Shown piece after piece: positions 54,694-57,138 of a DNA stretch of 64,000 bases. Under the pieces are notes generated by a model, which did no database searches, had not been told where the DNA came from, and was given only the letters and a program-made list of their open reading frames with translations. The stretch lies in the NCBI RefSeq assembly GCF_900113525.1, contig NZ_FOPP01000002.1:62001-126000 (forward strand), in the 5' to 3' direction. The stretch is from Pedobacter insulae (lineage in GTDB: Bacteria > Bacteroidota > Bacteroidia > Sphingobacteriales > Sphingobacteriaceae). Every line of letters starts with the position of its first letter. Position 1 is the first letter of the stretch. Made by a program: the position numbers and the translations under genes.

Positions 54694-56625
54694 TTAAAAC
54701 TTATTTTTTGTCTTTTCTTTAGCTGTATCAAGTAATTTGATAGTCAATTCCTTGATTTCACTATTTAGTTTACTAGAAGTAGCCGGATCTCCAGTTATTC
54801 TCACTTCCGTAAGTGGATCGCCCTCAACCATTTTATATTTCGCTTTAACCTTCTCTGGTTTTACAATAAGCGGAGGGAATTTTTGTGTCTTTTTATTTTG
54901 TGAAGGAGGTTCTACCTGTGGAGGTGGTATTGCTTTTTTTAGTTTGAGATTTGGAGGCGATGGACTTGTTTTTGGTGCATCTAGCTTTATAATTGGTGGA
55001 GGAAACTTAATTTGATCTGTTTGTGTATTAAATTCAATATTGGTTCCCGTAATCTCCACTGCACCATATTTGCCTTTTTCTTCCCCGTAAACTCGTGTAG
55101 CTTGTGCCGGACTCAAATAAGTAACTGTTTCAGCTTGGGTAATTCCTAAAAATTTACTATTGTCCTCAACTGGGGCTCCATTCACAACGATATATCTACT
55201 ATCTACCCCAACAAAGTTGCCAGTAGCTTTATCTTGTTTAAGGCTCGGTGTGAAGTACCGTTGTACGGTTTTTACAATTGGTGGAGGAAATTTTACCATA
55301 TCTTGTACTGGGGGTGGGGGTACGATGTCAGCTAAATAGTTAATATTTGATCCTGTAATTTCCACCCCACCAGATACACCTTCAATACCATATCTTTTTT
55401 TAGTTTCCTGTTGGCTTAATATAGTTACACTTTCAGTGTTGGTAGCGCCATAAAATTTGTCTTGATTTTCAACCGGTTTGCCATTTATCACAACATACAT
55501 ATTGTACACTCGAAAGGGCTTGCCGGTCTTACGATTGGTTCTATACGCTACAATATATCGATTTTGAACTTTTGGCTTGGTAGTAGCGGGTACCTCTTTC
55601 ACAATTGGTGGTGGAAACTTAATTTGATTAGTTTTTGCTTGCGTGGCATACTTAGCTTTTGGTGATTGCTCCTTTTTAATGCCCTGTGCTTTTGGTTTTT
55701 CCTGGAATGGCGCTATTGCAATGCTTTTCTCCGGAAGCAAATCAATATAGCCATAATCCTTTGTAAATGCCAGTGTAGATGCACAAAGCATTGCTGCCGT
55801 TAGGGGTAGCACCAACAGCAGCCTGAGCCTTGCCCCGCTCGCTGTTCTCTTTTTGTTTAACATGTTAATTCTCCTTTTTAATATTGATTGATTGAAAATT
55901 TGATTCGTAATTGGTTGTGCCCTTAATCCAAATGAGTTTTGGATCAAAAATAAGGCATATTCATGCTTGTGCATGTCAGTGCTGGTGGTCAGTTCATCAG
56001 CAATATATTCATGCAAGAGCTTGATGTCTTTTTTAATGAAATAAAGAACAGGATTGAACCAACTAATAATTTGTACTAGTTCAAAGAATAGGACATCAAA
56101 ACTGTGCTTCTGTTTGATATGGACCATTTCATGCTTTAAAACTGCCGGTTGATGGGCTAATCCCGGATGTATAAACAACAGATTAAAAAAAGAAAATGCG
56201 GTTGATTCTCCATTCACTTCCACCAAAGTGATATCGCCAGCAGTATGCTTCTTAGCCTTAAGCCAGATTTTTATGATTTTATAAATGCTAAAACTTAGCT
56301 TAAGGGCAAAAAAGAAAGCGACAAGGAGGTAAAACAGATATAACCAATTTATAACTGCAAATGAACTACTAATGTCAGCAGAGCTGGGTGGTTCCATAGG
56401 GGGTGGAGGTATCTCATATAGCATATCTCCGTGATACTGATATTGGGAAGGCTTTAAAAATCCTAATTGAAAAACGGGTAAAACAAATGATATAAAGGTA
56501 GAAGCCAAGAGGAAGTAGCGATTTAAGCTATAAAAAGTTTCATTTTGCAAAAGCAGACGGTAAAAACCGTAGAACAGGATCAAATACAGGTTTGCTTCGA
56601 GTAAATAATACAACCAGCTCATCAT
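54694..56625 (-). CDS. BlaR1-type M56 metallopeptidase with two TonB-plug-like periplasmic modules
   Basis: 643 residues. Transmembrane helices lie at about 5-25, 36-55, 90-118 and 268-288. The protease motif HEMVH is at 165-169 and the third ligand is in LLHEYIADE. After the last helix the periplasmic part has four KFPP(P/L)I(V/I)K repeats (336, 445, 540 and 582). Two modules (about 375-425 and 478-527) resemble TonB-receptor plug ends, such as YIVVNGAPVED, then VTYLSPAQATRVYG and YGAVEITG. No penicillin-binding sensor domain is present. It probably cleaves the BlaI-type repressor encoded just upstream, with a 4-base overlap, in response to an unknown envelope signal. Confidence 0.82.
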   Translation of the reverse strand: MMSWLYYLLEANLYLILFYGFYRLLLQNETFYSLNRYFLLASTFISFVLPVFQLGFLKPSQYQYHGDMLYEIPPPPMEPPSSADISSSFAVINWLYLFYLLVAFFFALKLSFSIYKIIKIWLKAKKHTAGDITLVEVNGESTAFSFFNLLFIHPGLAHQPAVLKHEMVHIKQKHSFDVLFFELVQIISWFNPVLYFIKKDIKLLHEYIADELTTSTDMHKHEYALFLIQNSFGLRAQPITNQIFNQSILKRRINMLNKKRTASGARLRLLLVLPLTAAMLCASTLAFTKDYGYIDLLPEKSIAIAPFQEKPKAQGIKKEQSPKAKYATQAKTNQIKFPPPIVKEVPATTKPKVQNRYIVAYRTNRKTGKPFRVYNMYVVINGKPVENQDKFYGATNTESVTILSQQETKKRYGIEGVSGGVEITGSNINYLADIVPPPPVQDMVKFPPPIVKTVQRYFTPSLKQDKATGNFVGVDSRYIVVNGAPVEDNSKFLGITQAETVTYLSPAQATRVYGEEKGKYGAVEITGTNIEFNTQTDQIKFPPPIIKLDAPKTSPSPPNLKLKKAIPPPQVEPPSQNKKTQKFPPLIVKPEKVKAKYKMVEGDPLTEVRITGDPATSSKLNSEIKELTIKLLDTAKEKTKNKF

Positions 56626-56990
56626 TTTGCGTTTTTAAGTTTTTCAGCCAAGGCAATTAATTCATCAAGCTCCTCCATATCCATGTTCTTCTCTTTCACC
56701 AAAAAGGAAACTAGACTTTGATAATTGTTCTCGAAATAATTGTTCATCACTTTATCAAATGCAAAATGCTTATACTCATCTTCGGTAATAAGAGGAAAAT
56801 AAATATGGGTATTCCCAATTGCCTTATGAGATAGGAAACCTTTTCCTTCCAGAACTCTTATCACTGTAGAAACGGTATTGTAGGCAGGCTTAGGAGGATC
56901 CATTTTATCAATTACATCTTTTACTAGTCCCTCCTTCATTTCCCATAGGATCAACATGACTTGCTCTTCGGCTTTTGTTAACTCTCTCAT
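56622..56990 (-). CDS. BlaI/MecI/CopY-family repressor
   Basis: 122 residues. The winged helix is LTKAEEQVMLILWEMKEGLVKDVID, then PKPAYNTVSTVIRVLEGKGFL (recognition helix) and GNTHIYFPL (wing). The C-terminal helices (YFENNYQSLVSFLVKEKNM) are for dimerisation and typically contain the cleavage site. Two direct operator-like sites lie 35-70 bases upstream. The M56 gene starts within its last codons (4-base overlap), so it likely represses its own operon until cleaved by the protease. Confidence 0.9.
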   Translation of the reverse strand: MRELTKAEEQVMLILWEMKEGLVKDVIDKMDPPKPAYNTVSTVIRVLEGKGFLSHKAIGNTHIYFPLITEDEYKHFAFDKVMNNYFENNYQSLVSFLVKEKNMDMEELDELIALAEKLKNAK

Positions 56991-57024
56991 AGTAATATTT
57001 TCTTTTTGTTAAATTAAATTTACT

Positions 57025-57060
57025 ACTATTTTTATAGTTATCAAACTATTTTTATAGTTA
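57025..57060 (-). promoter_or_regulatory. two BlaI-type operator sites
   Basis: ACTATTTTTATAGTTA occurs twice, at 57025-57040 and 57045-57060, exactly 20 bases apart. Each copy holds the dyad ACTAT-tttt-ATAGT. BlaI and MecI operators have ACTA/TAGT half-sites, so auto-repression of the BlaI-M56 unit is likely. An imperfect -7 box (ATAGTTTG on the minus strand, 57042-57049) overlaps the second site. Confidence 0.7.
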
Positions 57061-57125
57061 GGTATTTAATTAATTGATTTATAGGAAGATAAAATTATTG
57101 TAAGATGCCAATCCACATAATGTTT

Positions 57126-57133
57126 TACCTTTG
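57126..57133 (+). promoter_or_regulatory. -7 box 5 bases before dprA
   Basis: TACCTTTG, a full TAnnTTTG match, ends 5 bases before ATG 57139, suggesting a leaderless or nearly leaderless mRNA. Confidence 0.48.
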
Positions 57134-57138
57134 AATCA

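Follow-up and report, generated by a model that had tools for sequence, protein, structure and literature searches.

TonB-like and plug-like elements in the tail of an M56 protease paired with a BlaI-type repressor in Pedobacter insulae

Pairs of a BlaI-type repressor and an M56 membrane protease are known as beta-lactam switches, as in the BlaI/BlaR1 and MecI/MecR1 systems of staphylococci. Here we describe such a pair in Pedobacter insulae, located in a 64-kb stretch of contig NZ_FOPP01000002.1 (positions 62,001 to 126,000; "the window" below means the whole of these 64,000 nucleotides). The pair consists of a blaI-type repressor gene of 122 amino acids (aa; 56622..56990) and the gene of a 643-aa M56 membrane protease with a TonB/plug-like tail (54694..56625), both on the minus strand and overlapping by 4 bp. 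Like the staphylococcal systems, it joins a Penicillinase_R repressor and an M56 protease in one operon, carries the HEXXH motif and has palindromes at its own promoter. Unlike them, it has no penicillin-binding sensor, the tail being made of plug halves and TonB-linker words, and it is directly flanked by rsmG and dprA and not by a beta-lactamase or penicillin-binding protein gene.

The tail places the protein near several other described systems. It resembles the SusC/RagA receptors in that the sequence and predicted fold of its modules match the C-terminal half of the receptor plug (PF07715), and it differs from them in having neither a barrel nor the N-terminal plug half and in carrying two copies, on an inner-membrane-type protease. 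With the TonB of the same genome (loci L297 and L302) it shares the proline-rich linker word KFPPPIVK; unlike that TonB, it has no TonB C-terminal domain, possesses an M56 core and does not lie beside exbD. The M56-TonB_C fusions of Bacteroidota (19 of 57 tails in our phylum sample and one paralog in this genome) likewise combine an M56 core with TonB-system tail domains, whereas in the window protein linker words and plug halves stand in for the TonB C-terminal domain. The survey of TonB proteins by Chu, Peacock and Vogel in 2007 reportedly covers M56 proteins with TonB_C already, and is said to include TonB proteins with a MecR1-like N-terminus. Among the literature matches listed, with subscription papers mostly outside reach, none links M56/BlaR1 proteins to plug or TonB-linker pieces. 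In FecR-type cell-surface signalling, according to PMC7593790, a TonB-dependent receptor system is read into transcription through sigma/anti-sigma factors and a receptor signalling domain. The window pair would also read a receptor system into transcription, with a BlaI/M56 pair instead of these components.

Proline repeats and plug-like modules of the tail

Four copies of the peptide KFPP(P/L)I(V/I)K are found in the tail, all encoded on the minus strand: KFPPPIVK at residues 336-343 (55597..55620) and again at residues 445-452 (55270..55293), KFPPPIIK at residues 540-547 (54985..55008), these three being recovered by a genome pattern search, and KFPPLIVK at residues 582-589 (54859..54882), recognized as a sequence motif. 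The original prediction, made from the sequence of the window, had placed these copies between two modules; the four copies are indeed present, but they flank the modules rather than merely separate them, with one before, one between and two after. Not one of 20,000 shuffled tails contains even a single copy (here and below, the shuffles of tails, operators, box and linker words preserve composition only). Searching the genome for DNA that encodes FPPPI(V/I/M)K yields four matches, of which three lie within the M56 gene and the fourth in tonB. The latter gene encodes a 274-aa protein, which we regard as the TonB of this organism because it has a TonB C-terminal domain (E 2.2e-20) and lies directly after two exbD genes; its linker reads PPPPVEPPPPKQDQVKFPPPIVKPDE. 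At the sequence level, what the M56 tail repeats is the proline-rich word found in the linker of this TonB.

The same agreement extends to related genomes. Relatives of the M56 protein were collected by keeping the best 80 of 86 matches, and a set of 79 tails was drawn up from the window tail and 78 tails of 77 loci, with the distant loci L154-L156 and a short second reading in L120 excluded. An identical word of at least seven residues (up to 17) is held in common with the TonB linker by 45 of the 79 tails, compared with 1 of 1580 shuffled ones, and (K/R)(F/I)PPP(I/V/M) occurs in 37 tails with 72 copies in total, compared with 5 of 3950 after shuffling. On the side of TonB, every one of the 30 Pedobacter TonB loci that were read, taken as the best 30 matches from a set of 60 genomes, has KFPPP(I/V)V; for L332, a TonB of the same genus, the scan did not find the linker word, and across the phylum sample a wider form of the word appears in only 4 of 25 readable TonBs.

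The two modules have profile cores at residues 377-427 (55345..55497) and 477-529 (55039..55197), both on the minus strand and close to the limits given originally (about 375-425 and 478-527), and they are copies of one domain of ~52 residues. A profile grown from the relatives finds at least one module in 37 of 91 distinct M56 proteins (24 with one, 12 with two, 1 with three), and within the 79 tails in 34 (22, 11 and 1, respectively). Matched against 30 plugs of the same genome, the module profile hits 24 at E<0.05 (Z 1000; best 1.1e-6), at the C-terminal end of the plug, and leaves 6 of the 30 unmatched at this threshold; reversed plugs give nothing better than E 17. When the whole genome was scanned with the profile (E<=10), all 51 non-self matches fell on Pfam Plug hits, which make up 0.3% of both strands. 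The profile-profile comparison of the module with the plugs of the genome by hhalign gives 95.2% (E 2.5e-8), versus 0.1% for the reversed control, and in a profile search of the PDB the nine best of ten matches are SusC/RagA proteins (best E 6.5e-6). A whole-plug profile built from the 30 plugs matches the tails weakly (best whole-protein E 0.0029, in L132; 0.021 for the window protein).

Homology of the modules to the C-terminal half of TonB-receptor plugs is thus strongly supported by the profiles, and the predicted fold agrees. AlphaFold2 models module 2 (55030-55203) at a predicted local distance difference test score (pLDDT) of 91.5, with the order strand, strand, helix, strand. Of the Foldseek matches for the module, ranks 1-16 are TonB-dependent transporters (by count, 19 of 38 matches), and in VIA-align all 9 of 92 chains at Z>=2 are TonB-dependent transporters, with Z values of 2.1-4.2 that are low and were counted only jointly with the sequence evidence. 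BtuB was aligned at residues 74-133. An excerpt of PMC5413942 describes BtuB 73-136 as the C-terminal, mechanically strong part of the plug by force spectroscopy. The plug-like reading of the modules holds for the C-terminal half only; the tail contains no N-terminal plug half and, by Pfam, the M56 protein has no outer-membrane barrel domain, its residues 537-643 being modelled at pLDDT <50.

Tail turnover among orthologs, paralogs and the phylum

By title, the 80 related loci belong to Pedobacter (67), Mucilaginibacter (7), Parabacteroides (2), Nubsella (1), Aquimarina (1) and metagenome-assembled genomes (2). Since rsmG, BlaI and dprA recur as neighbors across them (in 63, 79 and 39 loci, respectively), we consider most of the relatives to represent one orthologous locus. 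On this conserved background the tails turn over quickly: among 700 sampled pairs of proteins, those whose cores are 50-60% identical share a median of 22% identity in their tails. What varies includes further pieces of the TonB system. A matrix for a 9-residue motif, LxEVVVVGY, was derived from 20 receptor peptides of the same genome (30 stretches, of which 23 entered and 20 were kept); the motif overlaps the TonB box of BT1763, VDEVVV, as given in an excerpt of PMC7782687. At the counting threshold of 14 bits this TonB-box-like motif is present in 17 of the 79 tails and in none in 50 rounds of shuffling, and in 13 of the 17 it begins within 50 residues of the C-terminus. TonB_C occurs in eight tails, seven from Mucilaginibacter and one from a metagenome-assembled genome (L150, under Pfam's cut-off), and all eight loci have dprA and rsmG on their usual sides; in the window M56 protein and its tail Pfam finds no TonB_C match. 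At least one of four elements, namely plug module, linker word, box and TonB_C, is carried by 67 of the 79 tails. Linker word, TonB C-terminal domain, box-like peptide and plug half are combined and exchanged at a single orthologous locus, whose protease and repressor stay conserved. Eleven of the 79 tails contain the type IX secretion signal domain CHU_C; at 4004-5977 of L079 it stands at the very C-terminus of a protein that is apparently anchored in the inner membrane.

Across the phylum, 83 of 118 sampled Bacteroidota genomes have an M56 match, 62 of them above the family cut-off. From 80 fetched regions 57 tails were extracted, the open reading frame rule removing the other 23. Pfam assigns TonB_C to 19 of the 57, Plug to 7, TonB_2 to 5 and ExbD to 1, and the module profile matches 8. 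Amidase_3 is present in two of these tails, and ExbD, a TolA C-terminal domain and an M23 peptidase in single ones; M56 tails thus seem to collect parts of envelope machines widely.

The P. insulae genome itself holds six M56 matches. In one paralog (L041, C19:120500-127500) a plug end accompanies a TonB C-terminal domain that shares 72% identity with the one in TonB. After this paralog, within 213-4027 of L041, come a 333-aa protein containing two plug ends and then a 268-aa protein with two TonB_C domains, which are 67% and 73% identical to that of TonB; the operon is a set of loose TonB-system pieces. Another paralog, at 2043-4412 of L038, has an N-acetylmuramoyl-L-alanine amidase domain in its tail and its own BlaI adjoining. 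A third, at 3117-4580 of L040, ends in what appears by eye to be a worn piece of a plug (an EVIVQGY stretch, then an NG...IKSV stretch).

Proposed function and alternatives

That the tail architecture has been assembled from TonB-system parts is nearly certain. What such a tail does for a repressor-protease pair is a separate matter, and here we favor, with a probability of roughly 0.47, an autoregulated BlaI/M56 pair whose periplasmic sensor, made of the TonB linker word and two plug C-terminal halves, reports on the TonB system. The M56/BlaI core would act as a BlaR1-like relay without the drug sensor, with the TonB/plug-type periplasmic tail in its place. BlaI would bind the promoter palindromes and repress its own operon, and the tail would span the periplasm as TonB does and meet the partners that TonB or plugs have. 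A change in the status of TonB (whether it is free or occupied, and whether it is energised) or of the receptors (whether they are loaded or mis-assembled) would then switch on the M56 protease, which would inactivate BlaI; the repressor would control how much is made of the pair itself and of any targets not seen here. The idea that the tail may sense, or be engaged by, TonB or the receptors was already part of the original prediction; the link to TonB is strengthened by two observations that go beyond it, namely that the repeats coincide with the linker word of the TonB encoded in the same genome and that orthologous tails contain box-like peptides and TonB C-terminal domains. These data suggest a sensor that monitors the TonB machine rather than antibiotics. 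In Porphyromonas gingivalis, an excerpt of PMC10470040 reports that the expression of a BlaI-type gene, whose next locus tag is an M56 gene, changes with hemin supply, which by analogy may be a hint compatible with TonB sensing.

If the proposed function is correct, the pair would report outer-membrane import at the level of transcription, by a route other than the single-receptor, sigma-factor type. M56 proteins recur across the sampled Bacteroidota genomes, often with TonB-related tail domains, and the exchange of TonB-system elements at one orthologous locus offers the TonB system as a concrete hypothesis for the ligand. A more specific form of the proposal, which we think improbable, makes the tail a gauge of the TonB motor: TonB, or a partner that recognizes the linker word, would hook the tail, and pulling, or its absence, would open the M56 site and lead to the destruction of BlaI. 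The mechanically strong plug halves would then be stiff beads on proline rods, and the locus would be a dedicated transcriptional read-out of how hard outer-membrane import works, with the tail rebuilt in each lineage from that lineage's TonB parts.

Several observations weigh against a sensor of the TonB system. The plug half in the tail is not the one that adjoins the TonB box; the Pfam Plug model (PF07715) gives no match in the window M56 protein; and Foldseek matches the module weakly, with a best E of 0.26 and none <0.001. The best box-like peptide of the window protein, LTEVRITGD at residues 605-613 (54787..54813, minus strand), scores only 11.1 bits, under the 14-bit mark, and among the 57 phylum tails 2 have the box motif, close to the chance level (shuffle maximum of 1). 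The plug module is missing from 45 of the 79 tails, and all four elements are missing from 12, so that no single element is essential. The fast divergence of the tails is as compatible with weak constraint as with a specific partner, and genome-wide operator scans found no TonB-related target of BlaI.

In another view, which we consider rather unlikely, the tail serves chiefly to span the periplasm and carries binding modules of a generic kind, the real signal being another one, such as peptidoglycan or general envelope damage. Proline rods and plug-derived folds would then have been taken up for their ability to cross the periplasm. Fast turnover on a conserved core is what a spacer would allow, 30 of the 79 tails are without module, TonB_C, CHU_C-like end or strong box, and domains of the amidase or M23 type occur in other M56 tails (2 and 1 of 57, respectively), as an amidase domain does in the L038 paralog. 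However, the proline word is not generic, its coding pattern occurring elsewhere in the genome only in TonB, and TonB-system elements are found in 67 of 79 tails, different ones recurring at one locus. Alternatively, the modules might compete with mis-assembled receptors for a periplasmic chaperone or protease, whose titration would activate the M56 protease as an envelope-stress signal. The modules are true relatives of plugs, and the 87 Plug matches in the genome imply a large assembly load; yet TonB-linker words, TonB-box-like peptides and TonB C-terminal domains would be left unexplained, and no chaperone of that kind is known for plug halves; we consider this account quite improbable.

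The tail could also be an effector rather than a sensor, competing with TonB for partners or acting as an alternative TonB, with the BlaI loop only setting the dose. Such a role would fit the linker words of the tail, the TonB C-terminal domain found in a paralog as well as in 8 of 79 orthologs, and the fact that the only operators called are the pair's own, but the window protein has no TonB C-terminal domain and has kept its protease motif and its BlaI partner, and we consider this role very unlikely. As for an ordinary beta-lactam sensor of the BlaR1 kind, the operon type and the M56 core are the same, and in a search of the PDB with the M56 family profile BlaR1 is the top match (E 0.011, with adrenergic receptors close behind). 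Nevertheless, the tail is of other origin and, as the original prediction had noted, a penicillin-binding sensor is absent: Pfam at E<=1 lists no penicillin-binding or transpeptidase domain in the M56 protein. For this reason, and because the NCBIfam model blaR1_generic scores 23 bits where its cut-off is 400, we discarded beta-lactam sensing as the default explanation, and its probability is very small indeed.

Conserved core, locus and control region

The pair of genes had been proposed for 54694-57060, and both were recovered there. The repressor consists of a winged-helix Penicillinase_R domain across the whole protein (PF03965, E 4.9e-29, profile positions 1-114 of 115) and is well kept among relatives, at a median identity of 80% to the window copy. 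The residue pair S-F in 78 of 79 BlaI matches, and T-F in the remaining one, occupies what we presume to be the cleavage site. The M56 protein (PF05569, E 1.4e-12) has its HEXXH zinc-protease motif as HEMVH at residues 165-169 (56119..56133, minus strand). Its conserved core, residues 1-288 (55762..56625, minus strand), is defined by conservation in two alignments and by the AlphaFold2 model, in which it includes four long helices that we read as membrane helices. In the full-length model (mean pLDDT 62) these helices and both modules are formed, while residues 290-353, like the C-terminal stretch from 537, are below pLDDT 50; with this model Foldseek returns three transporters (E 0.08-0.32) and then BlaR1 (E 2.1). 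PADLOC gave no match that would indicate a defence system.

The control region has two ACTATAAAAATAGT sites (ACTAT-N4-ATAGT) upstream of blaI, 20 bp apart, at 57025..57038 and 57045..57058; the segment to 57060 that was originally assigned to the pair takes in both palindromes. The first lies within the spacer of a putative blaI promoter, TTTG-N19-TAAATTTA (57015..57045, minus strand), which would be of the Bacteroidota kind. Across 80 sequences, namely the window and 79 loci, 71 preserve this pattern with a site inside the spacer, and at least two putative operator sites are present in 77; L083, L155 and L156 have no operator by this pattern. In 1600 shuffles one site arose 13 times and two sites never. 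The exact pattern occurs at five places in the genome, two of them at blaI, versus 12 for the backwards control pattern. Because the pattern alone is not enriched genome-wide, the case for the operators rests on their place and conservation. With a 16-mer at no more than two mismatches, the genome gives 11 forward and 22 reverse matches versus 27 and 28 for the control, so that no further target can be called, and within the window the three palindrome matches at no more than one mismatch equal the chance expectation. The visible output of the pair is therefore autoregulation, and the blaI promoter with its two palindromes would make a simple reporter. BlaI control of the divergent dprA gene was not adopted, the operators being ~80 bp or more upstream of the dprA start. 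In 38 of the 80 related loci a divergent dprA gene lies <300 bp from a BlaI, which in L081 is a second BlaI copy; the blaI control region at 57015-57138 is common to blaI and divergent dprA both here and in these 38.

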